A stretch of DNA of 64,000 bases from Granulicella sp. L46. Lineage in GTDB: Bacteria > Acidobacteriota > Terriglobia > Terriglobales > Acidobacteriaceae. The stretch covers positions 62,001 through 126,000 of the forward strand of contig NZ_LMUT01000025.1 of NCBI RefSeq assembly GCF_009765785.1. The letters run 5' to 3'. Both the position numbers and the translations under genes were made by a program. The stretch's first letter is position 1, and every line of letters starts with the position of its first letter. This document shows, piece by piece, positions 37,275 through 54,499 of the stretch. The notes beneath the pieces were generated by a model, which did not search any database, had not been told where the DNA came from, and saw only the letters and a program-made list of their open reading frames with translations.

Positions 37275-38485
37275 TTCGACTCACCCGCCGCATGTTTTGC
37301 TGTCAAACAGCCGCTTGTCTTACCCACTTTGCGTTTGCGGATGCGCTGAAGCCTACCGACGGCTACGCCCTAGTCGCCCGCACGGACCGGACCCGGATCA
37401 TCGAAGCCGCAACGCGCTACTTGGATCTGCGCCCGCACACCATCACGAGCTATCCAACCTCGCGCAGTCCCGGCGGAGTGCATGACTACTTCTCCCAGGC
37501 GGATTATTTTTGGCCCAACCCGCAAGACCCGGGCGGCAAATACATTAATCGAGACGGCCAAAGCAATCCTGACAACTTCAACGATCATCGCAAAGCAATG
37601 ATCGCCCTATCTATTCAGATGCCGGCACTGACAGCGGCATGGGTGCTCACAGGAGATCGCCGTTACGGCCGACTGGCTGGCGACCATCTCCGCGCGTGGT
37701 TCATCGATCCCGACACCCGCATGAATCCAAACCTCGAATATTCCCAAGGGGTTCATGGCGTATCTACAGGGCGCTCTTACGGCATTATCGACACGCTGCA
37801 TCTTGTTGAAGTCGCCCGCGCCGCCTCCATCCTCTCTCCAACCCTCCTCAATGCCACCGAGCAACAGGCGCTGCAAGACTGGTTCCGCGCCTACCTCCAC
37901 TGGATGAAAACCAGCGATAAAGGTATCGCTGAAAGGGACACAGTTAATAATCATGCAGTCTGCTGGGCACTGCAGGCTGCGGAGTTCGCTCGCTTGATCG
38001 GCGACCAGGACACCAGGGAAGAAGTGCGCACGCAATACAAAACACTCTTCGTTCCCGGCCAGATGGCGCTCGACGGAAGCTTCCCCAAGGAGCTTGCCCG
38101 CACCAAGCCCTACAGCTATTCCATCTTCAACTTCGATACCATGGCGACCCTTTGCCAATCGCTTGAGGGCGATGGCCCAAGCCTGTATTCTTTTGTCTTG
38201 CCCGATGGTCGCGGCATCTGCAAAGCAGCCGCCTTTCTCTACCCCTACCTCTTGGACAAAGGCACGTGGCCATACAAGCAGGACATCGAGCACTTCGCAT
38301 CGTTGCCGGTCCGTTCGCCCGGCCTACTTTTCAGCGGTCTGGCATGCCACCACCAGGAGTATTTGCAGTTATGGACCAAACTGAATCCCGACCCCACCGA
38401 CCCGGAGATTATTCGCAACTTTCCCGTTCGGCAACCGCTGCTTTGGGTAAGGCCGCCTTCGAGATCAAAGCAAAAAGCACGATGA
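37271..38485 (+). CDS. Alginate-lyase-family polysaccharide lyase
   Basis: The 404-residue protein has an RR-containing signal (RLTRRMFCCQTAAC) and the alpha-helical barrel of the PF05426 alginate lyase family. Typical stretches are SQADYFWPNPQDPGGKYINRDG, the catalytic-type NNHAVCW (Asn-His), and a later KPYSYSIFNFDTM with candidate tyrosines. Related families (PL5, PL38) cleave alginate or glucuronan by beta-elimination, leaving an unsaturated uronic acid end. The next gene product, a GH105, removes such ends, so the two fit as successive steps. The gene overlaps both neighbours by ATGA. Substrate choice is inference. Confidence 0.85.
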   Translation: MIRLTRRMFCCQTAACLTHFAFADALKPTDGYALVARTDRTRIIEAATRYLDLRPHTITSYPTSRSPGGVHDYFSQADYFWPNPQDPGGKYINRDGQSNPDNFNDHRKAMIALSIQMPALTAAWVLTGDRRYGRLAGDHLRAWFIDPDTRMNPNLEYSQGVHGVSTGRSYGIIDTLHLVEVARAASILSPTLLNATEQQALQDWFRAYLHWMKTSDKGIAERDTVNNHAVCWALQAAEFARLIGDQDTREEVRTQYKTLFVPGQMALDGSFPKELARTKPYSYSIFNFDTMATLCQSLEGDGPSLYSFVLPDGRGICKAAAFLYPYLLDKGTWPYKQDIEHFASLPVRSPGLLFSGLACHHQEYLQLWTKLNPDPTDPEIIRNFPVRQPLLWVRPPSRSKQKAR

Positions 38486-39699
38486 AACCTTCACGCGTCA
38501 CCGCTGTATATCTGCTGCTAGGCGCGTTCCTGATTTCTGCACCCCTAGCCCATCCGCAGACAGTCCAACAGCCTGCGGCCGCATCTCCAACCGTGGAGCG
38601 GGAACATGTCGGCGATGCGCCGGACGATCCCGGTCCGCTCGCAACTGATCTATCACCCGCACTGAAGCCTGCCGCCATCCGCAGCGCGATCAAGAAGGTG
38701 GCCGACTGGCAACTGCGCGTCGCGGAGCCCAACTTCAATTCGCAGTGGACCTTCGCTGCGCTCTACGATGGCTTGATCGCGGCCTCGGCCGCCACCGGAG
38801 ATTCGCGTTACCGGCAAGCCGTGATCGATTACGCAACCCGTCAGCAATGGAAACTTCTTAACAACCGTTTCCCCCACGCAGACGACATGGCACTCGGCCA
38901 GGCCTACCTCGATCTCTATTTGACCGACCGGCCGAAACAGCGCAAGTCCGAGCGCATCGCCGACACCAAGGCAATTCTCGACAAGCTGATTCAGCGCCCG
39001 GATGATCCTGCGAAAGACCTCTGGTGGTGGTGCGATGCGCTGTTCATGGCGCCGCCGGTCCTTACCCGCATGAGCATGGCAACCGACGATCCGAAATACC
39101 GGATCTTCATGGAGCAAGAGTGGGCCATCACGACCAAAAGCCTCTACGACCCGAGCCATCATCTCTACTTCCGTGATGCCCGCTACCTGACCAGGAAAGA
39201 GCAAAACGGACAGCCGATCTTCTGGTCGCGCGGCAACGGATGGGTGATGGGCGCTCTAATCAAGGTGCTGCAAACCATGCCAGCGACAGATCCCCGACGG
39301 CCAGAGTTCGTCCAACAGTTTCGCGACATGGCCGCTGAAGTGGCTTCCATTCAAGGAAAGGATGGCTTGTGGCGCTCTGGCTTGCTAGACCCCGATTCCT
39401 ACCCTCTTCCCGAGATCTCCGGATCGGCTTTCTTCACCTACGCCATCGCCTACGGAATTAACGAGAACATCCTCGATCGCAATCAATATCTCCCGGTGAT
39501 TGAGCGCTCGTGGGCCGGCATGCTGAGCCACATTTATGCGGACGGACGCCTTGGCTCCATCCAGCCCATCGACGGTCAACCGGGCATCTTCAAACCGTCT
39601 GCGAGCTATGTTTACGGAGTGGGTGGATTCTTACTTGCCGGAGCCGAACTTGAGAGACTTTCGCGTGAGAAACATCTCCCGTCTAATCCAGGAGAATAG
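38482..39699 (+). CDS. GH105-like unsaturated glucuronyl/galacturonyl hydrolase
   Basis: I start the gene at ATG 38482 because it overlaps the upstream stop (ATGA) and begins a good signal peptide (PSRVTAVYLLLGAFLISAPLA). Upstream in-frame codons would overlap the lyase gene. The 405-residue (alpha/alpha)6 protein has NNRFPHADDMALGQAYLDLY with the candidate catalytic aspartate, DLWWWCDALFMAPPVL and WSRGNGWVMGAL, all typical of GH88/GH105. These enzymes hydrate and release the 4,5-unsaturated uronic acid made by lyases. It closes the GH2-lyase-GH105 operon, and a bidirectional terminator follows. Confidence 0.9.
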   Translation: MKPSRVTAVYLLLGAFLISAPLAHPQTVQQPAAASPTVEREHVGDAPDDPGPLATDLSPALKPAAIRSAIKKVADWQLRVAEPNFNSQWTFAALYDGLIAASAATGDSRYRQAVIDYATRQQWKLLNNRFPHADDMALGQAYLDLYLTDRPKQRKSERIADTKAILDKLIQRPDDPAKDLWWWCDALFMAPPVLTRMSMATDDPKYRIFMEQEWAITTKSLYDPSHHLYFRDARYLTRKEQNGQPIFWSRGNGWVMGALIKVLQTMPATDPRRPEFVQQFRDMAAEVASIQGKDGLWRSGLLDPDSYPLPEISGSAFFTYAIAYGINENILDRNQYLPVIERSWAGMLSHIYADGRLGSIQPIDGQPGIFKPSASYVYGVGGFLLAGAELERLSREKHLPSNPGE

Positions 39700-39748
39700 C
39701 GGCTAAGTCGCAAATCCGGACGATTTTTCGCCAACCTACAACGCTAGC

Positions 39749-39772
39749 GGGGCACGGCAAACGCCGTGCCCC
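39749..39772. terminator. Bidirectional terminator between GH105 and GH30 genes
   Basis: A perfect 10-bp stem (39749-39758 with 39763-39772) has an AAAC loop, lying between convergent stops. A short T-run follows on the + strand a few bases on. Confidence 0.8.
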
Positions 39773-39782
39773 ATCTGCATTT

Positions 39783-42605
39783 TTAGTTCAGTGAGAACCA
39801 GTTTAGGTTGCCGGCAGTATTGTAGAAACCTCCACTGTCTATCACCAGTTGCAAGGTATGAACGCCTTCGGGCAGAGGGACATCCGGAATTTCAAGTGTC
39901 TGCCACGTCTGCCATCCGCCCGTCTCTGGCACTGAGATATGCGGCGTCACCTGCCGGCCGTCGACGTTGAGATGAAGCACCCCGCCGCCCACATCAGTCG
40001 CCACACGCACTCGCAGCGTGTAGTTCCGTGCCGTAGCAATATCCACGGTATAGTTCAGCCAATCCCCAGGCTGCCCATTGCCCACATCGTATCCCCCGCC
40101 TGTATCCGACGAGTTCTCGATGTCCACCGTCTCTCCCGGCCGATAGTTCGCTCCGCCGCCATTGGCCATGGCGCCATTCCAGTACGCGACGCCCTTACCG
40201 CCGGTATCAAAGTTCTCGATCTCTATCTGACCAGGAATCGCCTGAGGACCTCCGGTGAATGAGCTGCTTGGCGTCGGCGCCTGCAAACCGAACCAGTTGA
40301 AATTACCCATACCGCCGGTCGGTCCATTGCCATCGAGCGTCACTTGCATCACGTGTCGTCCGGCGCTGAGTTGAAACGCTGGCGAGACCTGCGTGGTGTA
40401 CGTCTGGAACCCGTTCGTCACCGGGACGAACAGCGTTCCAGTCTTGTTCTCGTCGTCGAATGAGACGTGATAGTACCCGCCCTGTCCAAGCGAAGCGACG
40501 CGGGTCTGCAGGTTGTAGATGCCCGGTGTGCTTACGTTGACGGTGTAGCGCAGGTATTCGCCTTCTTTGGTATAGCCAACGTCGTAGCCGCCGCCAGCGT
40601 CGCCCGTACCCTCAATGCCAACGGTCGTTCCCGGCCGATATGTCGGAGCGCTTCCCTGATCCGTCGAATCGAGATTGAAGTAGCCAACGTAGTTGCCGCC
40701 ATTATCGAAGTTCTCGGCTTGAATGATTCCCGGAATCGCAGCCGGCCCCGCGGGGAATGGAGCCTCCTTGCCGCCGATCGTGAAATTCACGGTCGACGAA
40801 GCGGTCGCATTTCCCTGGCGACCGAGGATGGTCACAGGATACGTACCGCTCGTGGCACTCTCCTCTGCCACAACCGGAAGCAGGTACTGATTGGTGAAGG
40901 GAATCGGCACCGGTTCACCAAACGCACCGCCAGGCAGCCCCTCAACTCTCAGCTCGGCATTCGCATGGTCGTTGCCGTAGTCGTTCACGTCGACGCTATA
41001 GAAGGTACGGCCTCCGGGCGCGACTGTCTGCGATCCAGGCCCTGCCGTCACATCAAACGTATTGCCCATATAGCCTTGCCAGAAGAATGTCGCCACCGAC
41101 TGCGCAGGCAGCGAGTAGCTGACCATCTTGCCCTTCCAATTCAACGAGAATTGGCTCGACGTTTGTGCGTCATTCAAGACCAGCACAGCAATTGAGCCGT
41201 CCGGATTCTTGAACGCAACATCTTCGACATTGCCGTGGCCGAACGAAGTCGAGTCGATCCGGTACGCGCCCGACTGCACATACTTCGCAAGGTGGCCAAG
41301 CACGTAATACTCCACGTTCTTCGAAATAGTGGCAGGCGTAGTCGAGTCGTCGATCGTCACTACACCGCGGCAGTCGTTGCATCCGTTCTGCACCGTCGGC
41401 CCATTGTTCTGATCCAGTGCAAGGTTCCAGAACACGACCGACTTACCCCAGTTGCGCAGCACGTTAATTACCTGGCCTTCGGCATCATTCACCAGGTTCT
41501 GCCCGAAGTACGGAGCGTATGTCCCTCCGGTGCATTCAGTGAAATAAACCGGAACATCCCAGGCAAGGTCGTGCACGGCATTCTGCGCATCGGCAACATT
41601 GCCCGCATAGCAGTGGAACGAAACGCCCGCAAGATACTGCCGAACCGCGGGATCTTCCGCGAGGATCTCCGGATACTTCGGGTTATCCCAGTTATGCTCA
41701 TACCCAAAAATTCCCGGCGTCGCGTCCATGGGGTCGTGCGACTGCCGAGCAAAGTTCCACCCGCGATTCCGCAGGCGCAGGTTGCGAAGCTGCGGCCCGA
41801 GATACTGCGCGATGAACTGCCCCTCGTCGTGCGGATTCATGAACATCGATGGATAGCCGCTGGTCTCGTTCAGTGGCTCGTTCTGCACCGAGACATAATT
41901 GATTGGAATCCCCTGTGCCTCGTAGGCCTGAACAAATTTCGCGAAGTATAGTGCCAGCGCTGGAAAATATTCCGTGTTGAAGCTACCGCCATCGAGCGTC
42001 CCCGTCGTCTTCATCCATGCGGGAGGCGACCACGGCAGGGCCTGCACCTTGATCGCCGGATTCGCCGCGAAGGCCGCCTTGATTGTCGGAATGATGTACG
42101 CCTCATCGTGCGCAACAGAAAACTGCTTCATCTGCGGATCGGTCTCGCCCGGCGGCACATCGTCATAGGTATAGCTGCTCAGCGAGAGGTCATTCGCTCC
42201 CATCGACTGCCGCAAATAGCTGAGATGAATTCCGCTCGGGCTGAACAGATCGCTCATCAACTGCGTGCGCTGCGCCGGCGTGAGCTTGTTCCAGACAAGA
42301 AATGCGTCGGAGTCATTGAAGCTCGCGCCTACACCTTCGAGCTGCTGATAGTGAATCGTGTCGTCGACGTTGATTGCCGTGCCACTAGCCGTACCATCGG
42401 TAAACGTAAGCGGCGTTTGCGGAGTCAGGAGCGCGGATTGATCGGGATTTGTCTGAACGACTCCCACGGTCTGCGCGCAAATATTCGGAGAACAAGCGGC
42501 AAAGAGAACGAGTAGAGATACGGAGAGTAGACAAACGTTTGTCCTGAAGCGCAGGAGCGTGTGAGGGAGGGTGTGAATGGGCCTGGATTTCATTGGAGAT
42601 CTCAC
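39783..42605 (-). CDS. Secreted GH30 glycosidase with two C-terminal CBM6-like modules
   Basis: The 940-residue protein has a signal peptide (LLSVSLLVLFAACSPNICAQ), then a GH30 catalytic barrel plus side beta-domain (about 75-520). The acid/base is E243 in SVQNEPLN and the nucleophile E357 in PVYFTECTGG. A linker domain is followed by two carbohydrate-binding modules of CBM6/35 type, each with QAENFD or EIENFD, GGGYDVG and an ending NWFxL. GH30 acts on beta-1,6-glucan, glucosylceramide-like or xylan substrates. The stretch from about 275 to 298 (rich in Arg, between LGPQLR and GYEHNWD) looks longer than in relatives I remember. It faces the GH105 gene. Confidence 0.88.
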   Translation of the reverse strand: MRSPMKSRPIHTLPHTLLRFRTNVCLLSVSLLVLFAACSPNICAQTVGVVQTNPDQSALLTPQTPLTFTDGTASGTAINVDDTIHYQQLEGVGASFNDSDAFLVWNKLTPAQRTQLMSDLFSPSGIHLSYLRQSMGANDLSLSSYTYDDVPPGETDPQMKQFSVAHDEAYIIPTIKAAFAANPAIKVQALPWSPPAWMKTTGTLDGGSFNTEYFPALALYFAKFVQAYEAQGIPINYVSVQNEPLNETSGYPSMFMNPHDEGQFIAQYLGPQLRNLRLRNRGWNFARQSHDPMDATPGIFGYEHNWDNPKYPEILAEDPAVRQYLAGVSFHCYAGNVADAQNAVHDLAWDVPVYFTECTGGTYAPYFGQNLVNDAEGQVINVLRNWGKSVVFWNLALDQNNGPTVQNGCNDCRGVVTIDDSTTPATISKNVEYYVLGHLAKYVQSGAYRIDSTSFGHGNVEDVAFKNPDGSIAVLVLNDAQTSSQFSLNWKGKMVSYSLPAQSVATFFWQGYMGNTFDVTAGPGSQTVAPGGRTFYSVDVNDYGNDHANAELRVEGLPGGAFGEPVPIPFTNQYLLPVVAEESATSGTYPVTILGRQGNATASSTVNFTIGGKEAPFPAGPAAIPGIIQAENFDNGGNYVGYFNLDSTDQGSAPTYRPGTTVGIEGTGDAGGGYDVGYTKEGEYLRYTVNVSTPGIYNLQTRVASLGQGGYYHVSFDDENKTGTLFVPVTNGFQTYTTQVSPAFQLSAGRHVMQVTLDGNGPTGGMGNFNWFGLQAPTPSSSFTGGPQAIPGQIEIENFDTGGKGVAYWNGAMANGGGANYRPGETVDIENSSDTGGGYDVGNGQPGDWLNYTVDIATARNYTLRVRVATDVGGGVLHLNVDGRQVTPHISVPETGGWQTWQTLEIPDVPLPEGVHTLQLVIDSGGFYNTAGNLNWFSLN

Positions 42606-42793: not shown

Positions 42794-45022
42794 TTAATCG
42801 CCGCTCTCCGCTACGGGTGTCTCGCACTTGCTGTCGAGCCCACCCGGCCACCAGTTCCAGTCCCCGGCAATTCGCAGCAGCGCCGGGCCAATCACAATGC
42901 GAACCAGTGTCGCGTCGATCAGTACGGCGATCGCCAGCGTAAAGCCAATCATCTTCACCACCAGAAAGTTTCCGAAGGTGAATGCCGCGAAGACCACGAT
43001 CATAATCGCGGCGGCGCTCGTAATCAGGCCCGCAGTTCTGGCCATCCCCTCAGGAATCGCATCCATCTCACTCAGTCCAGCCCTTCGCGCTTCGAGCACG
43101 CGCGCCACCAGGAACACCTCGTAGTCCATACTGAGTCCGAAGACGATCGCGAACGCCACAATCGGGACCAGCGGAAAGATGCTTCCCGTTCCGCCAGGCA
43201 CTCCGAGCAGACTGCTCCCATGTCCGTCCTGAAACACGAGCACCAGCGCACCGAAGGACGCGGCCACCGAAACCAGATTCAAGATGATGGCCTTCACTGC
43301 GGCAAACAGGGATCGGAAGCCGCACAGCAGGGCCAATAGCGTGCCGCCAACTACCAGCCCCATGACGGGCATAACGTGGCCGTGGATGATGGTTTCGTAA
43401 TCAGCGTTGAGTGCTGGGATGCCGCCCACCATCATCGTGGCGTCGGGAGCGCCGGTGAGTGCCGGCGCTCCCTCCTTGCGTATCTCGCGCACCCAGTCCA
43501 CCTGTTGCCGTAAGGACAGAGAGCTCTTTGGCAGGATCTCGACAAGCGCGGCCTTCCCATCACTGCTGAGGAACGTTCGCCTCGTCTCGCGCGAGAGATC
43601 GGTCAGGTTCGCTTGGTTTCCCCCCGCAATCGTCGCAATGGAGATCACGCGATCGCAACGTGGGTCGCTCTCAATCTGTTTCGCCACGCGGTTCAGCGCG
43701 TTCCACCCTGCATCTGTCTGCGTAACGGATTCCCCCGGCAGTTCAATCACCACGCGCATCGAATACACGATGCCGGTCCGATCCATCTGCTCCAGCGTAT
43801 GCAGCGCCTGCACCGACTCAGCCGACTTCGGCAGCCAGTCTCCCGACGGAATGCTGGTGTCCAGATGCTTCGCCTGCCACGCCAGCAGCACCAGCGGCGT
43901 TCCCGCGATCAGCAGCGCCAGCCATGGATGCGCCACAATCGTCCGTCCCCACCGCCTCCAGCGATTACCCGTGGCCGCGGCGCGATCCACATCGAGCTTC
44001 GGCGTAAACGGTAGTCGCCCCGCATCAATGCGCCGTCCCAGCAGGCCCAGTACCGCGGGCACCAGCGTGTTGGTCAACAGCACGCTCCATCCGGCAACCA
44101 GGATTCCGGCCAGCCCAATCGAACGAATCTCGCTGATGGGAACAGTAAGGAGCGCCACAAATCCAATGGCCACTGTGGAGGCCGAGATCAACAGCGTCCG
44201 ACCCGCCTGCCGCGCCGCAATCACCGAAGCCGCATATCCATCGTTCCCCGCGAACAGTGCCTCGCGAAAGCGGCTCACCATCAGCAGCGCATAATCGATC
44301 CCCAGGCCCAGCCCAAGCATTGTCGCGAGGTTCTGCACCAGGATCGACAGGTGCAGGCGCTGCGCCAGCAATCCCGTAATCGCCAGGCTGGTCGCGATGG
44401 CAATCTCACCCACCGCCAGCGGAATAATCGCGGCGACTACGCTTCCAAACGCGATCAGCAAGAGGATCAAGGTCGCGGGAATCACCAGCGTCTCGCCACG
44501 CCGCACGTCATCCGAACTCGCCTTGCGGATGTCAAAGTTGAGCGGAAGCTCGCCCGTGAGCTGCAATTTTACCCCGGGATACTGCCCCCGCAGCTGGTCC
44601 TCAAGCAAATGCGCCTGTTGATGCAGCATGGGAACCAGCGACTCCACCGGAGCTCCGGTAGACACGAGTCCCACCAGCACAAACGTCCCGCCGCCCTTTC
44701 CAAGGAAGATCGAATCGCGCAGCTCAAGATACGAGACCACGCCCGACACCCCGGGCTGCTGTCGCAACTGTGCCACAATCGTCGTCAGCGCCTGCTCGCC
44801 TTCAGGCGAATTGGCGGGCGGAATCCCCTTAACCACAAGAACCACGCGCTCAACGAACGGTGAATGAAAGCGCGTGGCCAATTCCTGCCGGACCACCTCG
44901 GCCTGGCTACCATCGACGCGGGTTGCCGTCTCCAGATGACGCTCGGCGTGAAAGGAGAAGGGAAGAAGGGCAATGACCGCAACAAGGACTACCCCGGCCA
45001 CCCAGAAACGACGCAGATGCAT
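42794..45022 (-). CDS. MMPL-family (RND-type) membrane transporter
   Basis: Start set to ATG 45022 (MHLRRFWVAGVVLVAVIAL), the beginning of the first membrane helix; ATG 45106 would add 28 hydrophilic residues. The 742-residue protein has two repeats, each a large extracytoplasmic loop followed by a five-helix bundle. The proton-relay motifs are GIDYALLMVSRFREA and SMDYEVFLVARVLEA. MMPL proteins export lipids and lipid-like molecules, and related ones export other compounds. It neighbours the FAAL/thioester-reductase gene on the same strand, which suggests a lipid cargo, though a convergent small gene lies between. Confidence 0.88.
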   Translation of the reverse strand: MHLRRFWVAGVVLVAVIALLPFSFHAERHLETATRVDGSQAEVVRQELATRFHSPFVERVVLVVKGIPPANSPEGEQALTTIVAQLRQQPGVSGVVSYLELRDSIFLGKGGGTFVLVGLVSTGAPVESLVPMLHQQAHLLEDQLRGQYPGVKLQLTGELPLNFDIRKASSDDVRRGETLVIPATLILLLIAFGSVVAAIIPLAVGEIAIATSLAITGLLAQRLHLSILVQNLATMLGLGLGIDYALLMVSRFREALFAGNDGYAASVIAARQAGRTLLISASTVAIGFVALLTVPISEIRSIGLAGILVAGWSVLLTNTLVPAVLGLLGRRIDAGRLPFTPKLDVDRAAATGNRWRRWGRTIVAHPWLALLIAGTPLVLLAWQAKHLDTSIPSGDWLPKSAESVQALHTLEQMDRTGIVYSMRVVIELPGESVTQTDAGWNALNRVAKQIESDPRCDRVISIATIAGGNQANLTDLSRETRRTFLSSDGKAALVEILPKSSLSLRQQVDWVREIRKEGAPALTGAPDATMMVGGIPALNADYETIIHGHVMPVMGLVVGGTLLALLCGFRSLFAAVKAIILNLVSVAASFGALVLVFQDGHGSSLLGVPGGTGSIFPLVPIVAFAIVFGLSMDYEVFLVARVLEARRAGLSEMDAIPEGMARTAGLITSAAAIMIVVFAAFTFGNFLVVKMIGFTLAIAVLIDATLVRIVIGPALLRIAGDWNWWPGGLDSKCETPVAESGD

Positions 45023-45132
45023 CACACATTGGATGATACAAAATCGTCCCCACGAACAGTGAAAGGAATGCAGATTCTTCGTCGCTAGGTGTTCCCGGTT
45101 TGGCACATATATCAGCTTTCAAGCGCTTTTGA

Positions 45133-45951
45133 ATCTGCTACATTGATCCCATCAATCTCAACGGCACAATTCGTACGCTGATCTTCGTCGGCCTCGCCGC
45201 CGCCGCTCCCCTCGTCGCCCAGCAGGACCCGCGCATCGGCTCCTGGACGCTTACCTCCGCCCAGGCGTCCCTCGATCCTCCCAACAAACTCTCCATCACC
45301 CCGGTGGGGGATCAGATGCACGTCGTCATGTCAGGCGATCGGCACTTTGATTTCACCGCGAAAGCCAACGGCCACCCCGCGCCCGCGCCCGGCAACCTGG
45401 GGTTCAATCAAATTCAGCTCCACCGGCTTGATAAGCGCCAGTCTGAGGTGAAGGAGATGAAAGACGGCGCGCTCGTCGCCACAGTTCGCGTCAAGCCCTC
45501 CGCCGACGGCAAAGAGCTAACCACCACCAGGACAATCGCAGGCCAACCCGATGAGGTCACGGTTTGGGTTCGCACCGGCGGCGCGAAGGTCGCCCACGAT
45601 CCGCTCGCGGGCGAATGGACGGAAGACCTGAGCAAATCGCGCTTGAGCCAAGGCCTGACCCTAAAGATCGCCCCTGATGGAAATGGCGGCGTCCGCTTCT
45701 CATGGGACTACAGCTACGATGCCCGCTTTGACGGCAAGCCGTACGACCTCAAAAACTCCCGCAACGATACCGTCAAGCTGCAACTCGTCGATCCGCACAC
45801 CGTCACCGCAATCTACCTGCGCGACGATCAAGTGACGCAGAAGGACAAGTGGGCCGTCTCTCCAGATGGTCAAGAGTTGACTGTCACCACCACCGGCGTT
45901 CTCGAAACCGGTCAGCACATCAACGAGAAGCTGGCCTTCAAGAAGCAGTAA
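45133..45951 (+). CDS. Secreted protein of unknown function; start codon unclear
   Basis: The clear coding frame runs from about 45178, with GTG 45304 as the first standard start. The frame is open back to 45133, and the upstream part encodes a convincing signal peptide (IRTLIFVGLAAAAPLVAQQ) and a mature start (DPRIGSWTLTSAQASLD). No ATG, GTG or TTG occurs there; only CTG 45178 or ATT/ATC codons (45142, 45151) are available. Either a rare start is used or the start codon has mutated. The mature part (about 240 residues) has regular beta-rich segments (GEWTEDLSKSRLSQGLTLKI, YDARFDGKPYDL) and no family I can name. The 3' end overlaps the FAAL gene stop by 14 bases, convergent. Confidence 0.7.
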   Translation: MCYIDPINLNGTIRTLIFVGLAAAAPLVAQQDPRIGSWTLTSAQASLDPPNKLSITPVGDQMHVVMSGDRHFDFTAKANGHPAPAPGNLGFNQIQLHRLDKRQSEVKEMKDGALVATVRVKPSADGKELTTTRTIAGQPDEVTVWVRTGGAKVAHDPLAGEWTEDLSKSRLSQGLTLKIAPDGNGGVRFSWDYSYDARFDGKPYDLKNSRNDTVKLQLVDPHTVTAIYLRDDQVTQKDKWAVSPDGQELTVTTTGVLETGQHINEKLAFKKQ

Positions 45952-48900
45952 CCTGCGTAGCGGAAGTCGCTGGGACGGGCGCATCGGCCGTAGTGACCGT
46001 TGTGTCCAGCTCGCGCGCCGCCACCGAGATGATTCCCTTGCGATGCATGAACTTCAGAATGCCGCTGACGGTCTCCTCGAGCGTCGGCTCCGGCACGCCC
46101 CAGGTCGCAGCATTCCGCGCCTTCTGGTACTCAGTGTTGTCGTAGCGCTTGAACTCCATCGCCGAGATGTTGTCCACCGAGCCCACCAGGAAGTCGAGCA
46201 GAGGGAACAGCAGATCTTCCTTGCGGCAGCGGCGAATCAGCTCCGGAACAAAGTCGGTGATGCTGAAGATCTCGAACTGCCGCCCCGTCAACTTGGTGAT
46301 CAGGTTCGTGATGTCCATCATGTTCGCGTAATCGTCACGCACCAGGTTATAGGTCTTGTTCTCCGTGCCCGGTGTGGTTGAAATCGCCACGATGTTGTTC
46401 GCGATAACGTCGGCAGGAACAAAACTTATCTGGTTCAGCGCATCCACGCCAATGCCGTGGTTCACCATGAACGCAACCAGGCGCACAGCGATATCGAAGT
46501 TATTGCCGCCACCGGTAACCGATGGGCTCACCAGCGCTGGCCGGTACGTTCGCACGCACAAACCCTTTTTCTGCGCGTCCTCAACCACTCGCTCTGCAAC
46601 CCACTTGGACTGGCTGTATCCGAAATCCAGCAACTCCATGTCCTTGTTGCAATCGGTCTCGTACAGAACACTCTTCAATGCCCAGCCAAAGATGAACGTC
46701 GTCGAAACGTAGTTCAGGCTCTTGGCCTTTCCTTCGAAGCACAGCTTCAGCACTTCGTTGGTTCCCAACACATTCGCATCGCGCATGCGGTCGTAGTTGA
46801 ACAGGTAGTTCACCGTCGCGCCGTTGTGGTAAATCGAATCCATCTCCGTGGCGAGAAAATCCCACGTCTCCTGCGTGAGGCCCAGCTTCGGCTGTCCAAG
46901 GTCTCCGCAAACCGGCAGCACCCGCGCCTCGAACATCTCCATCAGCCCGGCCGGACACGGTCCCATCGACTCCATCGCTGCCTTGAGTCGCTGGCTGCCC
47001 TGCGCTTCATCCGACGAACGCACCAGCACATGAATCTTCGCCTGCGTCTGCTCCAGCAGGCTCTTGATCAGGAACGGTCCAATGAACCCAGTGCCTCCCG
47101 TAAGCAGCACTTGCTTGAGCACCGGATGCTTAGGCATCGGCGCTGGCTTTTCTGGTGTGAAGATGAGCTTCTTGTCATTGCTCATCATCTCCTTCTCAGC
47201 CGCATGCTGCTCATCGCGGAACGCCGCAAGCGAATGCCGCAACAGATCGATCGCCTCTTCCGGGGCGCGCTCCAACTGTTCTGCAAGCTGGAATAATTCG
47301 GCAACGCTCACCCGCTGAATGACACCGATATCCACCTGCCGTGCGAGCAGCTCGGCGCCCTTGTCCTTCAGTAGTTCCTTGAGCTCGTGCATGAATACAA
47401 CGAGATCCAGCGAATCCAACCCCGCTTCAACGAGGTTGTAGGACTCCATGCCCGTAAGGTTGTAGCGCGACTTCAACACGTCGAACGAAGACTGAACCTC
47501 TGTATCCGGCGCGCAGGCGCCCGCGTCCTTCTCCCGCGAAAATTCAGAGAGAACGTTGAACTGCCCGTCCAGCCACATCATCTTCGCCTTGTGGCGCATG
47601 ATCTTGCCCGAGCTTGTCCGCGGTATCGCACGCGGCGCGATAAAGGAGATCAACGCGGTCTCCACGTTGAGGAAACTCCGCACGGCCGCCGCAATCTTCC
47701 GCGCCTCCGGCAGCTGTTTCGGATTCTTGACCTCGGCCACAATCGCCAGCGCTGGCTCGCTGTCTTCATTGATTTGGAACGCAGCCACGCAGTTATGGCG
47801 AATCAAGCCTGAGGCCTTTTCGACCACGTTTTCAATGTCCTGCGGATAGTAGTTCTGCCCGCGCAGAATGATCATGTCCTTCAGCCGCCCGCAAACAAAC
47901 AGTTCGCCGTCGTGGAAGAATCCCATGTCGCCGGTGCGAAGGAAGCCATCATCATACGGCGTGTCATCCACCAGCCGCGCGCGAAACTGCTTCAGCGTCA
48001 GCTCTGGATTGTTCCAATACCCCTGGCACTTACCGCTGCCCGCCAGCCAGATCTCGCCGACCAATCCGTCTGCCAACACATTGTGCTGATCCGGATCCAC
48101 AATCTTCACATCCAGCCCCGGTAGCGGGATGCCGCAACTCACCACCTGCGTGGCTGCGCCAATCTCCGAAACTTCGGTGGTCTTGCGAACCTTGCCCAGC
48201 GCCAGCGCATGCTTGTTCACGGAGATGATGGACCGCCCGCCCAGCGAAACAGCCAGCGTATTCTCAGCCAGCCCGTAGGCAGCGTAAAAACTTTCCTTTT
48301 TCAGGCCGTAGGGTTGAAACGTCTCCAGGAACCGTGTGTACGTGTCCGGCTTCACTGGCTCGGCCGCGCACATCAGGACGCGCAGAGAGCTCAGATCGAA
48401 GCCCTCCATCGTCTCCTTGGAGAGCCTTCCCGCGCGCAGGCAGTAGTCATACGCGAAGTTAGGAGCCGCCGTCGCCGTCGCGCGATACGTATGGATCGCT
48501 TCGAACCAGAGCGACGGCCGCTGAATAAAGTCCATCGATGCGAAGCCGTACGTCGTTCCGCCGCGCAGCGCTGGATAAAGATAGCAGCCAATCAATCCCA
48601 TGTCGTGATACTGCGGAAGCCAGGAAACGACGATAGGCGACACATGGTCAATGACCAGCGGACAGGTCTCCAAAATGTTTTCGTGGCTCACAATGACGCC
48701 CTTGGGCTCCATCGTCGATCCAGAGGTGTATTGCAGAAACAAAACCTTGGAAGGCGCGGGAAACGGTTCCTTCCGAACGCTATGGTGAAAGTCTTCGGTG
48801 ACAATCCACGGCAGGCCGGAGATGTAATCGACATCCACACCCGACGTCGAGACCCCATTCCTCGCGAGATTCGTCTTTAGCGACCCGTGATAGTCCTTGC

Positions 48901-49255
48901 TGGTCAGAACTCCCGCCGCCTGGCAATCTTTGGCGATGTGGACCATCTTGTACAGGGCGCTCTGAAAGCCGCGAGACCCGGGAGGATACACAGGTACAGG
49001 AATCAATCCGGCGCGCACGCACCCAAAGAACGCGCAGATCATCTCCAGGCCCGGAGGATACGCGAGCAGAAGCCGATCCTCCGCAACGAACTGCCCATTG
49101 CGCAGCAGGTGCGAAGCGATCGCTTTTGTCCGCTCCAGAAACTCGGAGTAGGTATAGCCCTCGATTTGATTGCCGTTCAGGTCAAGGTACGAATAAAGGA
49201 GTTTGTGCGGGTGCTCATTCCCCAGCCTATCGAGTTGGTCCAAAATCGATACCAT
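45938..49255 (-). CDS. Fused fatty-acyl-AMP ligase, acyl carrier protein and thioester reductase
   Basis: This is a three-domain enzyme of 1105 residues. Residues 1-575 form an adenylation domain of FAAL type: YTSGSTMEPKG (176-186), SWLPQYHDMGLIG (211-223), TGDMGF, GRLKDMIILRGQNYYPQDIE and catalytic K551. Residues about 580-665 are a carrier domain with the phosphopantetheine serine S615 (EAGLDSLDL). Residues about 705-1105 are a reductive-release SDR domain with LLTGGTGFIG (718-726) and Y880/K884 (YSQSKW). The chemistry should be: activate a fatty acid, load it on the carrier, then release it as an aldehyde (or alcohol). It is divergent from a desaturase and P450. Confidence 0.92.
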   Translation of the reverse strand: MVSILDQLDRLGNEHPHKLLYSYLDLNGNQIEGYTYSEFLERTKAIASHLLRNGQFVAEDRLLLAYPPGLEMICAFFGCVRAGLIPVPVYPPGSRGFQSALYKMVHIAKDCQAAGVLTSKDYHGSLKTNLARNGVSTSGVDVDYISGLPWIVTEDFHHSVRKEPFPAPSKVLFLQYTSGSTMEPKGVIVSHENILETCPLVIDHVSPIVVSWLPQYHDMGLIGCYLYPALRGGTTYGFASMDFIQRPSLWFEAIHTYRATATAAPNFAYDYCLRAGRLSKETMEGFDLSSLRVLMCAAEPVKPDTYTRFLETFQPYGLKKESFYAAYGLAENTLAVSLGGRSIISVNKHALALGKVRKTTEVSEIGAATQVVSCGIPLPGLDVKIVDPDQHNVLADGLVGEIWLAGSGKCQGYWNNPELTLKQFRARLVDDTPYDDGFLRTGDMGFFHDGELFVCGRLKDMIILRGQNYYPQDIENVVEKASGLIRHNCVAAFQINEDSEPALAIVAEVKNPKQLPEARKIAAAVRSFLNVETALISFIAPRAIPRTSSGKIMRHKAKMMWLDGQFNVLSEFSREKDAGACAPDTEVQSSFDVLKSRYNLTGMESYNLVEAGLDSLDLVVFMHELKELLKDKGAELLARQVDIGVIQRVSVAELFQLAEQLERAPEEAIDLLRHSLAAFRDEQHAAEKEMMSNDKKLIFTPEKPAPMPKHPVLKQVLLTGGTGFIGPFLIKSLLEQTQAKIHVLVRSSDEAQGSQRLKAAMESMGPCPAGLMEMFEARVLPVCGDLGQPKLGLTQETWDFLATEMDSIYHNGATVNYLFNYDRMRDANVLGTNEVLKLCFEGKAKSLNYVSTTFIFGWALKSVLYETDCNKDMELLDFGYSQSKWVAERVVEDAQKKGLCVRTYRPALVSPSVTGGGNNFDIAVRLVAFMVNHGIGVDALNQISFVPADVIANNIVAISTTPGTENKTYNLVRDDYANMMDITNLITKLTGRQFEIFSITDFVPELIRRCRKEDLLFPLLDFLVGSVDNISAMEFKRYDNTEYQKARNAATWGVPEPTLEETVSGILKFMHRKGIISVAARELDTTVTTADAPVPATSATQVTAS

Positions 49256-49796
49256 AATTGATCAGTAATGCCCTCGGGTTTGAATACGGAAAATCCGGTT
49301 TCCAAGAAACTCTACACGCCTTGCAGCACCTTGTGTGCCGTTGGCGCGCATTCCATTGCACTGCCGGAGATCGGATTATAGTGTAGGCCCGATTGCAGAA
49401 CGATGGGGTAAGCGCCCTCTATGTATACGTTCGTAACTCCGCTTCGTTGCAGGTTCCCCGGGCGATCGAACGCACGAGACGGTCAGGTCGTACGAGGTCC
49501 CGGCCGGGGCTGCCTATCACCCCTGACAGAGCATTTCGCTGTTAACTGATCCTTCACGTTATGTTAGCAGAGCAGGAGCATTTCAATGCGCCCTGAATCA
49601 ACCGTGGCTCGTCCAAACGATGCGCCCTCGCGGCCCCATTCGGTCCGAATTCTCTTGATTCAGCGTCCTACCCCGGGCTACCATCAAGGTTACCGCTGAC
49701 AGCCGCAGCGCAGGCCCATGCCATCACCCAACCGCTGCTTCCCGCCCGCATGGGCCAACAGGACAGGATCTACATGACAACCTCGCGGAGTAGCCG
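49256..49796. other. Divergent control region between the FAAL and desaturase genes
   Basis: 541 bases separate the two start codons. It should carry both promoters. I see no recognisable riboswitch or clear operator. It includes a possible short ORF, listed separately. The remainder has several short GC-rich inverted segments but nothing I can name. Confidence 0.5.
49586..49699 (+). CDS. Possible 37-residue ORF or leader peptide upstream of the desaturase
   Basis: ATG 49586 is preceded by AGGAG (49574-49578) at a normal distance and opens a 37-codon frame to TGA 49697-49699. The product is Arg/Pro-rich (MRPESTVARPNDAP...) with no signal or membrane span. It ends about 97 bases before the desaturase start. 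It could be a leader peptide, a remnant or chance. Confidence 0.3.
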   Translation: MRPESTVARPNDAPSRPHSVRILLIQRPTPGYHQGYR

Positions 49797-50957
49797 TTGA
49801 CGCCTTATACCGAAGCGGTGCTTACCCTTTCCAGAGACACCCAAGCGCCGGATATAGAAGACCTTGTACCCTCTGAGGCCGCCCTGCAGCAGCCTCACAG
49901 CGACCTTGCCGCCGCAGCTTCTTTTCCCAAAGTCCTGCGCCGCCGCCTCGACAGATTCTTTGCCGAAAACAAAGTCTCCCCCAAAGCCAATCCCATGATG
50001 TGGACAAAGATTGCCACTGGCACCGCCGTCCTCTTCGGCAGCTGGATCGCCATCTATGCCCTCCACCCGAACTCCTGGGCCTTCATTAGCCTGTACCTTC
50101 TGGGAGGCCTCGCCCAGACATTTCTCTTGCTGAATATCGCGCACGACAGCAATCACAATGCGATTTCCTCAGCCCCGCTGGTCAACAAGGCCCTCAACTA
50201 TGCCTTCGACCTCTGCGGCATCAACTCTTACATGTGGCGCATCCTGCACCACCGCGGCCACCACTCCTGCATCAACCTGCATGGCGAAGACGACGCCCTC
50301 ACCGGCCGTGGCATCTTCCGCTTCACGCCCCATGAACCGCGCGCTAAGTGGCATCGTTTTCAGCACATCTACGGTCTGCTCTTCTACGCCATGTTCTCGC
50401 TCGATTACGTCTTCGTCAGAGACTTCGAGGCCTTCTTCTTTCCCAAGCACGATTACATCAAGCGCACCCGCCACCCCCTGCGCGAGTACGTCATTCTCTT
50501 CGCGAGCAAGGCGTTCTACCTCACTTACATGCTTGTTCTGCCAGTAGTGCTGCTGCACATGCCCGTGCTGCAGGTACTCGGCGCTTTCCTGTTAGTCCAT
50601 CTGGTCGTCGGCTTGAGCGTATCGCTCGTCTTCCAGACCACCCACACCGTTGACACCACCTACTTTCCAGCCGAACGCGGCGAGTTTGATAACGGCGTGT
50701 ATCACATCTTCGCCACCACCGCAGACTACGCAACCGACAACCCGGTCGTCAGTTGGCTCACCGGCGGCCTCAATCACCACATCGCGCACCACCTCTGTCC
50801 ATTCGTCTGCCACACCCATTACGCGCCACTCACGCGCATCGTGAAGGAGACGGCAGCGGAGTTTGGTGTACCCTATCGGCAACACCCCACGATGAGCCGA
50901 GCCATCGTTCGTCACCTGATCCTTTTGAAGCAACTGGGCAACCAGGATTCCCTTTGA
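49797..50957 (+). CDS. Membrane fatty acid desaturase (di-iron)
   Basis: The 386-residue protein has the three histidine boxes of membrane desaturases: H116-D-S-N-H120, H151-H-R-G-H155-H156, and H327-H-I-A-H331-H332, with hydrophobic pairs between. Such enzymes introduce double (or in relatives triple) bonds, or hydroxyls, into acyl chains bound to lipids, CoA or carrier proteins. No cytochrome b5 or ferredoxin domain is fused, so electrons come from elsewhere. The start is TTG 49797, with CGGAG about six bases upstream; there is no ATG until residue 67. It is the first gene of the divergent arm opposite the FAAL gene, followed by a P450 after 130 bases. Confidence 0.9.
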   Translation: MTPYTEAVLTLSRDTQAPDIEDLVPSEAALQQPHSDLAAAASFPKVLRRRLDRFFAENKVSPKANPMMWTKIATGTAVLFGSWIAIYALHPNSWAFISLYLLGGLAQTFLLLNIAHDSNHNAISSAPLVNKALNYAFDLCGINSYMWRILHHRGHHSCINLHGEDDALTGRGIFRFTPHEPRAKWHRFQHIYGLLFYAMFSLDYVFVRDFEAFFFPKHDYIKRTRHPLREYVILFASKAFYLTYMLVLPVVLLHMPVLQVLGAFLLVHLVVGLSVSLVFQTTHTVDTTYFPAERGEFDNGVYHIFATTADYATDNPVVSWLTGGLNHHIAHHLCPFVCHTHYAPLTRIVKETAAEFGVPYRQHPTMSRAIVRHLILLKQLGNQDSL

Positions 50958-51087
50958 TTGCCTGGCCGGTTTGCCTGATCCGTTTGCCTCTTGCGTCCGC
51001 CTGATCCGAAACCGCTGACGACCCCAGGCCTTCAAACAATTCCACGAGAGTCTTCACTGTTCTCTGCAACAATCTGGACAGCAAGGC

Positions 51088-52476
51088 ATGACATTGCCCT
51101 CATCAATTCCCGCCGTTTCCCGCTTTCGTTCTTTCGCCGACTCGCGCGCGACGGCAGCCAATCCCGTCGAAGTCCTGCAGAAATACAATCAGGAATTCGG
51201 CGACACCTTCCGCTTCTATCTCGGTGGCATTAAAGAGGCGATCGTCACTATCGATCCCGCCGTCATTCAGCACGTCCTGAAGACCAACTCTGAGAACTAC
51301 AAGAAGTCGGACATCCAGGTGAAGCGCATGGGTCACTTCCTTGGCAAGGGGCTCCTCACCACCCACGGAGAAGCCTGGCGCACCCAGCGCCGCCTCATCC
51401 AAAAAGGTTTTGACCGCAAGCAGCTCGAAGCCCTGTCTTCGATCATGCAAGACTCGCTCACCGACTCGCTACGCCAGTTCGACAGCCAGATCCACAACGG
51501 CCCTGTCGACATCTATCCCCACCTGATGAAGATGACCTTCGCCATGGTCGCGCGATCGCTCTTCGGAGCCCGCCTCAAAGACGAAGACATCGACCTCATC
51601 AGCCACACCATCTCCACCGTCCAGGAATTCATCGTCCGGCAAACGCTGCAGCCCTACCTGAACCCGTGGTTCGCGGCGACCGGCGAGCTGCGCAAGCACG
51701 AAGAGATGCGCGCCACCGCCGACAACGTTCTTCTCGAATATATCCGCATGCGTCGCCACGAAGAGCCCGGCAGCGACCTGCTCCAGACCTTAATGGACGC
51801 CCGCTACGCCGACGGCGAAGGCATGCCCGACTCCCTCATCCTCAGCGAAAGCATGCAGCTGCTAGTAGCTGGCCACGAAACCTCGTCGAACGCGCTCTCC
51901 TGGCTGCTCTATCTCCTCAGCACCCATCCCGACGTCCTCGACCGCGTCCGCAACGAGTTCGACGAGATCCTCCACGGCGAACCCTTGAACTTCACCGCCG
52001 TCCCGAAATTCGTCTTCACTACCCAAGTCATCAACGAAGCGCTTCGCCTCTACCCGCCCTTCTGGATGATCGATCGCGAAGCCGTAGCCGACGATCGTGT
52101 CGGCGATACAGTCATCCCCGCCGGCTCAACCGTCATCGTGTACGTCTACGGAGCCCACCACGCCCCGCGCTATTGGGAGAATCCCGAAACCTTCGACCCC
52201 AACCGCTTCACCAAAGAGAATAGTGCGGCGCAGCCGCCCTTCACGCATCTGCCCTTCGGCGGCGGACCGCGCGGCTGCATCGGCGGCAACTACGCCATGC
52301 TGCAGATCCTAATGATCCTCAGCACGCTCCTCGGCAAGTACGATCTCGAGCTGCCCCCCGGGCAAACGATCGAACCCCGCGCCATGGTCATCCTCCGCCC
52401 CAAAAACGGCATCCGCATGTCCTTCACCGACACGGTACCGAGCCAAGTCCCAGTACCCGCCGGCTGTCCTTACTAA
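51088..52476 (+). CDS. Cytochrome P450
   Basis: The 462-residue heme monooxygenase has the I-helix AGHETSS (261-267), the K-helix E317-A-L-R320, and the heme-binding FGGGPRGCIGG with ligand C397. The sequence pattern (EALRLYPPFW, PFTHLPFGGGPRGC) is like the CYP102/CYP4 fatty-acid-oxidising side of the superfamily. There is no fused reductase and no redox partner gene nearby. Lying after the desaturase and across from the FAAL gene, it could hydroxylate or epoxidise the same acyl chain. Substrate is inference. Confidence 0.92.
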   Translation: MTLPSSIPAVSRFRSFADSRATAANPVEVLQKYNQEFGDTFRFYLGGIKEAIVTIDPAVIQHVLKTNSENYKKSDIQVKRMGHFLGKGLLTTHGEAWRTQRRLIQKGFDRKQLEALSSIMQDSLTDSLRQFDSQIHNGPVDIYPHLMKMTFAMVARSLFGARLKDEDIDLISHTISTVQEFIVRQTLQPYLNPWFAATGELRKHEEMRATADNVLLEYIRMRRHEEPGSDLLQTLMDARYADGEGMPDSLILSESMQLLVAGHETSSNALSWLLYLLSTHPDVLDRVRNEFDEILHGEPLNFTAVPKFVFTTQVINEALRLYPPFWMIDREAVADDRVGDTVIPAGSTVIVYVYGAHHAPRYWENPETFDPNRFTKENSAAQPPFTHLPFGGGPRGCIGGNYAMLQILMILSTLLGKYDLELPPGQTIEPRAMVILRPKNGIRMSFTDTVPSQVPVPAGCPY

Positions 52477-52537: not shown

Positions 52538-54499
52538 ATGTATCCTGCCGAAATGAGCTCGAACCAGCCGCCCACCCTTCCAGCCACTCAGCATCTCCAC
52601 ACCACTCGCCGCCGCCTTCTAGCCGCTTCCGCCGCCGCCGGTCTCGGCGGAACGCTCTTCCCCGGCGCCCTGCTCGCCCTGGCTACTAACGCCTCCGCCG
52701 CGCAGGCGCCCACACAAACCGATCTCCGCGGCTGGCCTGCCATCACCCCGGAGATGATCGAGGCGGCCGCAACCATCGCCGCCATCAAGGTCACGCCCGA
52801 GCAGATCAAGATGCTGCTCGACGACGTTCTCGGCCAGCGCAACTCCGCGCTCCGCGTCCGCGACCTGCACCTGCCCAACAGCGTTGCCCCCACCGCCGTC
52901 TTCAATCCTGTCCCGGCTGGAACTCCCGGCCCGCAACCCGCGCCCGCGCGCCCCGTCGTGCTCGGTCCAGCACCCTCCATCGCCGGTCTCTCCGCGTCAG
53001 AAGAGGAGAAGGTAGCCTTCGCCACCATTCGTCAGATCGGCGAGCTTCTTCGCCACCACAAGCTCACCTCGGTCGAGCTAACCAAGCTCTATCTCACGCG
53101 CCTCAAGCGCTACGACCCCACGTTGCACTTCGTCATCACCCTCACCGAAGACCGCGCTCTCGCACAGGCCGCCGCCGCCGATCGCGAGCTCGCCGCAGGC
53201 CATGACCGCGGCCCGCTGCACGGCATCCCCTGGGGAGCCAAAGACCTTCTCGCCGTCAAAGGCTACCCAACTACCTGGGGCGCGGCGGGTTTCGAGACCC
53301 AGACCTTCGATGAAGACGCCGAAGTCGTCAAGCGTCTCGATGCAGCCGGCGCAGTTCTCATCGCCAAGCTCACCATGGGCGCGCTCGCGCAAGGCGATCT
53401 CTGGGGCTATCCGGAAGGCGCAGGCAAGCCGGGCGCTCGCACCCGCAATCCGTGGAATCTGAAGCAGGGAAGCTCGGGCAGTTCCGCCGGCAGCGCTAGC
53501 GCAGCCTCCGCCGGCTGTGTAGGTTTCGCCATCGGCACGGAAACTCTCGGCAGCATCTCCTCCCCCAGTACGCGCTGTGGCGTCACCGGCCTTCGTCCCA
53601 GCTTCGGCCTGGTGCCGCGCACCGGCGCCATGGCTCTCGTCTGGTCAATGGACAAGATCGGTCCCATCACGCGCTCGGTTGAAGATTGCGCTCTCGTTCT
53701 CAACGCAATCTACGGTCCCGATGGCCGCGATCAAAGCGTCCAGCCCGCGCCCTTCCACGCTGATCTGAGTGCCGACATCCACACCCTCCGTGTCGGCTAC
53801 ATCGAGTCCGCGTTCAAGCCACCAACACTTTCGCCCATGTCGCCCGAGGAGACCAAGTCCCTCAGCCCCGCCGAGCTCAAGAAGCACGAACAGCAGCGCA
53901 ACGCCTCCTTCGCGCAGCGCGCCTACGACCACCAGTTCAACGCGCGCGCACTCGACGCCCTGCGCAGCATGGGCGTCAAGCTCACGCCCGTCGAGATGCC
54001 AAGCTTCCACTTCTCCGCGCTACTGAACATCCTCGGAGCCGAAGCCGCCGCTGCCTTCGACGACCTCACCACCTCCGGTCGCGACGCTCTGCTCTCCGGC
54101 CAGAAACCCTACGACTGGCCCAACGGCTTCCGCACCTCGCGCTTCCTCTCTGCCGTCGACTACATCCAGGCCGAGCGCGCCCGCTCCCTCGCGCTCTCTG
54201 CCATGCACCAACTCTTTGCCAACTTCGACGTCATCGTCACCCCAAGCGGAGGCACGCAACTCACCGCCACCAACCTCTGCGGCCAGCCCGCAGTCATCGT
54301 GCCCAACGGCCTGCGCGGCCCCGACGCCCCACCCTTCGCACCCACTGCGGACGACGACTGGCCCGACTACGGCGGCCCCGGCACCCCTGTCTCCCTCACC
54401 TTCCTCGCGCCGCTCTATCAGGACGCAAAGGCCGTCGCGCTCGCCCACGCCTACCAACTCAAGACCGGCTTCCAGCTCCTCCACCCAAAGCTCGCATGA
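52538..54499 (+). CDS. Tat-exported amidase (amidase signature family)
   Basis: The 653-residue protein has a twin-arginine signal (TTRRRLLAASAAAGLGGTLF, residues 22-41), then a Pro/Ala-rich linker, then an amidase-signature domain from about 155. The catalytic triad is Lys235 (GAKDLLA), cis-Ser315 (SSAGSA) and nucleophile Ser339 (GTETLGS). These enzymes hydrolyse amides, including fatty acid amides. The start may be ATG 52538 or ATG 52553. It lies 61 bases after the P450 gene on the same strand and may belong to that operon, but such amidases are also common on their own. Confidence 0.9.
   Translation: MYPAEMSSNQPPTLPATQHLHTTRRRLLAASAAAGLGGTLFPGALLALATNASAAQAPTQTDLRGWPAITPEMIEAAATIAAIKVTPEQIKMLLDDVLGQRNSALRVRDLHLPNSVAPTAVFNPVPAGTPGPQPAPARPVVLGPAPSIAGLSASEEEKVAFATIRQIGELLRHHKLTSVELTKLYLTRLKRYDPTLHFVITLTEDRALAQAAAADRELAAGHDRGPLHGIPWGAKDLLAVKGYPTTWGAAGFETQTFDEDAEVVKRLDAAGAVLIAKLTMGALAQGDLWGYPEGAGKPGARTRNPWNLKQGSSGSSAGSASAASAGCVGFAIGTETLGSISSPSTRCGVTGLRPSFGLVPRTGAMALVWSMDKIGPITRSVEDCALVLNAIYGPDGRDQSVQPAPFHADLSADIHTLRVGYIESAFKPPTLSPMSPEETKSLSPAELKKHEQQRNASFAQRAYDHQFNARALDALRSMGVKLTPVEMPSFHFSALLNILGAEAAAAFDDLTTSGRDALLSGQKPYDWPNGFRTSRFLSAVDYIQAERARSLALSAMHQLFANFDVIVTPSGGTQLTATNLCGQPAVIVPNGLRGPDAPPFAPTADDDWPDYGGPGTPVSLTFLAPLYQDAKAVALAHAYQLKTGFQLLHPKLA

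Follow-up and report, generated by a model that had tools for sequence, protein, structure and literature searches.

A FAAL-like fusion gene, a desaturase and a P450 form part of a conserved candidate lipid cassette in Acidobacteriaceae

The window, a 64,000-nucleotide stretch of the Granulicella sp. L46 genome (5.48 Mb in 39 contigs), holds a conserved unit of five genes that spans positions 42794 to 52476 and lies on contig C19. A preliminary description had confined the locus to a fusion gene, a desaturase and a P450 at 45938-52476, a range that proves too narrow, although the three genes and every residue it named (K551, S615, Y880 and K884 of the fusion, C397 of the P450 and the three His boxes of the desaturase) are present as described. 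The features are as follows:

42794..45106, minus strand: MMPL/RND-type exporter, 770 residues as listed (PF03176)
45169..45951, plus strand: secreted protein with a predicted fatty-acid-binding-protein-like beta barrel, 243 residues (orthologue comparison, structure model)
45938..49255, minus strand: fusion of a FAAL-like adenylation domain, an acyl carrier and a thioester reductase, 1105 residues (open reading frame list, Pfam, NCBIfam)
46604-46606, minus strand: codon of K884 in the fusion
46616-46618, minus strand: codon of Y880 in the fusion
47411-47413, minus strand: codon of S615 in the fusion
47603-47605, minus strand: codon of K551 in the fusion
49256..49796, no strand: intergenic region between the divergent arms, presumed to hold two promoters (sequence)
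49797..50957, plus strand: membrane fatty-acid desaturase, 386 residues, TTG start as listed (PF00487, 98.5 bits)
51088..52476, plus strand: cytochrome P450, 462 residues (PF00067, 295.7 bits)

Pfam places an AMP-binding domain over residues 14-414 of the fusion (221.6 bits) and NAD_binding_4 (PF07993) over residues 718-955 (197.3 bits, cut-off 20.1), and the protein passes the NCBIfam thioester reductase model TIGR01746 (240.6 bits, cut-off 213.35). The carrier domain is marked by no Pfam model and is assigned from the motif EAGLDSLDL around S615. All 91 aligned relatives of the fusion have K551, S615, Y880 and K884 unchanged.

The adenylation domain appears closer to fatty-acyl-AMP ligases (FAALs) than to CoA ligases. 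The top-scoring PDB chains for the first half of the fusion are 7r7e and 3kxw (chain names polyketide synthase and saframycin synthetase), both of which we take to be FAALs. Those PDB chains whose names call them fatty-acid-AMP ligase or fatty acyl-adenylate ligase reach 218-233 bits (FadD23 233, FadD32 226, 3pbk 219.5), against 78 bits for 4-coumarate-CoA ligase. Among the best 25 of 105 NCBIfam models, those named as FAALs reach up to 335.5 bits, every one of them below its cut-off (PRK12476, 335.5 against 922; PRK09192, 331 against 600). PRK07768, named a long-chain CoA ligase, comes near the best FAAL model within the same best 25 of 105, at 301.0 bits; the CoA ligase model PRK06187 gives 142.5 bits. 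The scores under the curated FAAL cut-offs, together with that of PRK07768, weaken the FAAL reading. FAALs carry a specific insertion; the alignments to 7r7e and 3kxw continue past the YGLAE motif with no large gap. The Terracidiphilus fusion (L038:7729-11184, L118) has a glycine/asparagine-rich insert in its adenylation domain, which is absent from the other 11 sequences aligned with it. Carriage of the cassette on plasmids was rejected, since plasmid records gave one match at E 1e-100, to the FAAL half of the fusion at 39% identity.

For the last third of the fusion, the nearest solved reductase domain is that of MxaA (4u7w, 193 bits). MxaA terminates a PKS/NRPS assembly line, whereas the reductase described here is joined to a loading domain. 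Fusion residue A907 aligns with D998 of SrCAR (via 5msp), a position where Asp is presumably linked to aldehyde selectivity; the 91 aligned fusions have 82 Ala, 8 Ser and 1 Gly there.

The desaturase carries its His boxes at 116 (HDSNH), 151 (HHRGHH) and 327 (HHIAHH), and matched no PDB sequence at E 0.01. C397 of the P450 lies within PFGGGPRGCIGG. Genome-wide searches at E 0.001 gave two matches each for PF00487 and PF00067, one of each pair in the cassette. The P450 of the cassette shares 40-47% identity with eight fusion-linked P450s of distant loci but only 28.5% with the second P450 of its own genome, which argues for co-inheritance with the fusion. For the desaturase, identity with eight fusion-linked desaturases of distant loci is 28-49%, and its match to the other desaturase of the genome is not significant (28 residues, E 0.07). 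In one desaturase (L031:11885-13021) the first His box reads HDSHLN rather than HDSNHN, with one conserved His shifted, which is either an error or an altered enzyme.

Like the MmpL/RND lipid exporters, the MMPL protein shows PF03176 in two MMPL stretches and matches the MmpL3 and HpnN models in part. The HpnN model gives 81.8 bits (cut-off 751.85), and identity with the trehalose monomycolate exporter MmpL3 was rejected at 256.9 bits against an NCBIfam cut-off of 1400. Because orthologue matches begin near residues 12-32, translation may start at an internal ATG near 45022.

A structure model of the secreted protein, built on an alignment of 29 of its 45 distinct orthologues, has a mean pLDDT of 92.1. 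Foldseek returned weak matches with low TM-scores, a DUF3598 structure being first. When the Foldseek top 1000 were realigned with VIA-align, the first row was a NanoLuc-type luciferase barrel (Z 14.0), tied with fatty-acid-binding proteins, among them 1vyf with oleate (Z 13.8, rmsd 2.5, 112 of 243 residues); about half of the model aligned to barrel structures. The predicted fold resembles a fatty-acid-binding-protein beta barrel. The modelled protein may well be a lipid carrier, a shared fold showing no function by itself.

The gene for this protein probably uses a conserved AUU start at 45169, which mechanical open reading frame calling misses, placing the start later, at 45304. Starts were scored by requiring a codon 3-6 bases after a Shine-Dalgarno-like sequence and near the signal peptide start. 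Among the 45 distinct orthologues this gave 24 ATT, 7 TTG and 3 ATG; the 11 that fail the rule include the window's own gene, and several of them still show ATT or ATG at this place (ATT in the window). Of the 24 ATT orthologues, 11 have no ATG, GTG or TTG in the stretch that separates the ATT from the in-frame stop before it. AUU starts are known in Escherichia coli infC and pcnB (PMC9410913), and a conserved AUU start is reported in staphylococci (PMC13009471). The secreted gene would then be a fresh example of a known phenomenon. The infC gene of the same genome (G000:C2:122372-122578, L150) also lacks ATG, GTG and TTG from its upstream stop as far as the IF3 domain, which agrees with the known infC start.

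In all, 200 family genomes were searched with the fusion at E 1e-100. This gave 17 matches, of which 14 (the genome analysed included) are orthologous, with 75-100% identity and two partial; the other three were dropped, their match being confined to the FAAL part at about 40%. One surrounding locus was read in each of the 13 other genomes with an orthologous fusion, and the desaturase and P450 stand in the same divergent arrangement in all 13. In 11 loci the contig continues; all 11 have the MMPL gene and 10 of them also the secreted gene, which went undetected in L028 at E 1e-10. A named collection, the best 80 of 174 confirmed loci, comprises 46 near loci (at least 70% identity) and 34 far ones, some of its records representing the same genomes as the 13 loci. 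The 46 near loci of these best 80 include the desaturase in 42, the P450 in 40, the MMPL gene in 39 and the secreted gene in 38, and every miss falls at a contig end except that of the secreted gene in L048. Some copies are split: the P450 in L040, the MMPL gene in L067 and the desaturase in L073 and L084. The preliminary description had staked its reading in advance on co-occurrence of its three genes in related genomes, and these counts bear it out.

A gene-by-gene comparison of 31 loci, chosen by hand for their long flanks (two of them, L029 and L079, are nearly the same), found no gene outside the cassette common to more than three of them. The cassette is a bounded unit amid differing neighbours. 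As candidate members, the amidase at 52538-54499 was rejected (found in none of the 46 near loci of the best 80 of 174), as were 12 further window genes used as queries, which did not recur in the 13 loci apart from one 24% match of the 33230 gene in L032. The genes adjoining the cassette at 37271-42605 (alginate lyase, GH88 and GH30) form a polysaccharide-degradation group that is not conserved with it in the 13 loci. A foreign origin was also considered from G+C content; the cassette (57-62%) shows no clear contrast with its neighbours (57-67%).

Presence across 28 genomes of the genus was scored at E thresholds of 1e-200, 1e-80, 1e-120, 1e-150 and 1e-15. The fusion occurs in 13 of them, 13 have none of the five genes and two, G578 and G116, are partial. 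The desaturase accompanies the fusion in 12 of the 13 genomes, the contig of the remaining one, G584, beginning inside the fusion. The P450 is present in the same 12 and in G578, and the MMPL and secreted genes in all 13, in G578 and in G116. G578 is interrupted at contig ends, just where its absent genes would be expected. G116 is a genuine exception: a 30-kb contig carries, at locus L151 (G116:C61:1-12000), the MMPL and secreted genes without the fusion, desaturase and P450, next to genes read as cell-division genes. Since the pair is kept there without the other three genes, the exporter and secreted protein may have a separate role. Across a draw of 396 genomes of the phylum, the fusion type was found in 18 at E 1e-200, so its distribution is patchy.

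The fusions of the 34 far loci (best 80 of 174) are 44-56% identical to that of the window, and their titles name Saprospiraceae, Saprospirales, Cytophagales, Flavobacteriales, Crocinitomicaceae, Gemmatimonadetes, Planctomycetes, Verrucomicrobiota, Calditrichia, Caulobacter, Acidobacteriota and others. Searched with the window proteins over flanks of up to 9 kb, often ended by the contig end, these 34 loci of the best 80 contain the desaturase in 20 and the P450 in 20: both in 12, one partner only in 16, and thus at least one in 28. The six with neither (again of the best 80 of 174) are L083, L086, L088, L104, L119 and L120. Adding queries from some far loci left the partner lists unchanged. 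The desaturase/P450 linkage across phyla comes in different gene orders and strands.

Saprospiraceae loci mostly have the desaturase followed by the fusion. Most Flavobacteriales-type loci run fusion, P450, sulfotransferase and desaturase, and upstream of these there is often a phosphopantetheinyl transferase as well as a second desaturase; three (L099, L107, L111) are without the sulfotransferase. Using sulfotransferase queries from L096 and L100 and transferase queries from L114 and L100, each gene was found in 10 of the 34 far loci of the best 80 of 174 (the sulfotransferase in L096, L097, L100, L103, L106 and L113-L117); L086 has a further sulfotransferase. A sulfotransferase beside the fusion suggests a sulfated lipid. 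A flavin monooxygenase and an SDR stand beside the fusion and P450 in L105 (Gemmatimonas), L116 (Planctomycetota) and L095 (Acidobacteriota), and a flavin monooxygenase is present in the Caulobacter locus L083, from which desaturase and P450 are both absent.

Seven distant copies of the fusion come from other Acidobacteriota families. Six are without desaturase and P450 in the stretch read (the flanks of L144 are short); the remaining one, L138, is L095 again. Two genomes of such families, G331 and G435, each have two distant-type copies, with neither partner gene in the region read. For a tree, 98 sequences were considered (leaving out L041, whose contig is also that of L031); 91 of them passed 85% one-piece coverage, and 55 were used, the near group being hand-thinned to 14. 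In this quick search, with SH-aLRT support only and a midpoint root, eight sequences without a nearby desaturase or P450 are split from the other 47 by a branch that measures 0.84 changes per column and has a support of 100. The side of 47 holds all linked cases in the tree and four without either partner (L083, L086, L088, L104). The fusions with Ser at the SrCAR D998 position are exactly those of the distant clade. This partnerless clade suggests that the linkage is tied to one subtype of the fusion.

The fusion resembles carboxylic acid reductases (CARs, EC 1.2.1.30) in having adenylation, carrier and reductase parts in that order in one chain of about 1100 residues (the carrier by its motif), and in having the carrier Ser and reductase Tyr and Lys (S615, Y880, K884). 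It differs from them in its FAAL-like adenylation domain, in its place beside a desaturase and a P450, and in having Ala where SrCAR has D998. Membership of the CAR family was rejected at 130.7 bits (NCBIfam NF041592, cut-off 1300), and that of the L-aminoadipate reductases (Lys2) at 185.8 bits (TIGR03443, cut-off 1030.1). The carrier Ser and the reductase Tyr and Lys are essential in NcCAR, as are His237 and Glu433 of its adenylation domain (PMC5826065). We infer that the fusion is a FAAL-based analogue of carboxylic acid reductase, and would expect it, like CARs, to reduce acids using ATP and NADPH. In jamaicamide-type pathways, a FAAL charges a carrier with a free fatty acid and the chain is acted on by a desaturase (JamA; PMC11837247). 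The cassette shares this carrier loading and the desaturase but has no PKS or NRPS module, and its loading polypeptide itself would release the chain reductively. A word search of the text of that review gave no word starting with reductase, aldehyde or P450.

Taken together, the locus reads as a compact cassette for lipid biosynthesis and export, to which we assign a probability of roughly 0.6. The FAAL-like domain would convert a free fatty acid to the acyl-AMP and load it onto the phosphopantetheine of S615. The desaturase would add a double bond and the P450 an oxygen function, either on the carrier or before loading, and the thioester reductase would use NADPH to free the chain as an aldehyde, perhaps reducing it further to the primary alcohol. 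In Acidobacteriaceae the MMPL protein, with help from the secreted barrel protein, would export the product; in Flavobacteriales, a hydroxyl would instead probably be sulfated by a sulfotransferase. The domains, the catalytic residues, the conserved linkage, the joint presence or absence in the 28 genus genomes and the desaturase and/or P450 in 28 of 34 far relatives (best 80 of 174) argue for this reading. It is weakened by the six far relatives with neither partner and the mere 12 of 34 with both (best 80 of 174), and by G116, which keeps the MMPL and secreted genes alone. None of the five genes encodes a phosphopantetheinyl transferase, and the sole PF01648 match of the genome appears AcpS-like, which leaves activation of the carrier unaccounted for. 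The lipid pathway proposed in the preliminary description holds in that its three genes are a conserved unit whose enzymes fit loading, desaturation, oxidation and release; its set was incomplete, the exporter and secreted protein having been missed. Its acidobacterial framing was too narrow, given the relatives outside the phylum.

The fusion might stop short of an end product, yielding a fatty aldehyde as an intermediate (reactive or signalling, or a precursor of an ether lipid, ester or amine through genes elsewhere), so that the cassette alone would make no finished compound. The flanks of the 31 loci hold no further conserved enzyme gene, which fits such a role, whereas the dedicated exporter and secreted barrel protein speak against it, as does the fusion's lack of Asp at the SrCAR D998 position, presumably linked to aldehyde selectivity. 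CARs have the nearest known architecture and reportedly halt at the aldehyde (PMC5826065), yet their reductase domains can over-reduce aliphatic aldehydes (PMC10168641); the two papers disagree on how far CAR-type domains proceed to alcohols. On balance we consider an intermediate aldehyde rather unlikely. Less probable still is that shared regulation alone joins these genes, with the desaturase and P450 acting on bulk membrane lipids or some other compound while the fusion produces a fatty alcohol of its own. Many members of the desaturase's membrane family do act on lipids or CoA esters, and 16 of the 34 far relatives (best 80 of 174) keep one partner only; but the linkage persists across phyla despite varied gene order and strand, and the partnerless distant clade suggests that it follows one fusion subtype. 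Chance neighbours or an annotation artefact, favoured by nothing beyond the genes lying on opposite strands, are refuted by recurrence of the locus (13 of 13 loci; desaturase in 42 and P450 in 40 of 46 near loci of the best 80 of 174, with misses all at contig ends) and by the near-complete joint presence or absence in the genus.

Beyond the lipid biosynthesis-and-export reading of this locus, a broader and decidedly tentative picture is of pathways shared across phyla, in which a FAAL-based carboxylate reductase, a desaturase and a P450 make oxidised unsaturated fatty alcohols. Their ends might differ by lineage: sulfation in Flavobacteriales, a flavin monooxygenase and SDR in single Gemmatimonas, Planctomycetota and Acidobacteriota records, and MMPL export with an AUU-started secreted lipid-carrier barrel in Acidobacteriaceae.

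Judged from its sequences, this is a real, conserved lipid-type cassette, for which the chemistry first proposed seems reasonable. No description of the gene set appears in the titles and abstract starts of the open-licence papers listed; this agrees with the preliminary description, which knew of no described acidobacterial product of the set. If the lipid reading is true, the core genes of an orphan lipid class occur in cultivable soil Acidobacteriaceae and several other phyla, and a FAAL-based kind joins the acid-reducing enzymes. The cassette is small enough for expression in a laboratory host and is carried by named strains, including Bryocella elongata DSM 22489 (L057), Terracidiphilus gabretensis S55 (L118) and several of Edaphobacter lichenicola, which makes the proposal directly testable. 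An acidobacterial-type cassette, 76% identical, also occurs in a record titled Verrucomicrobia bacterium Tous-C9LFEB (L080), either a mislabelled bin or a recent transfer.
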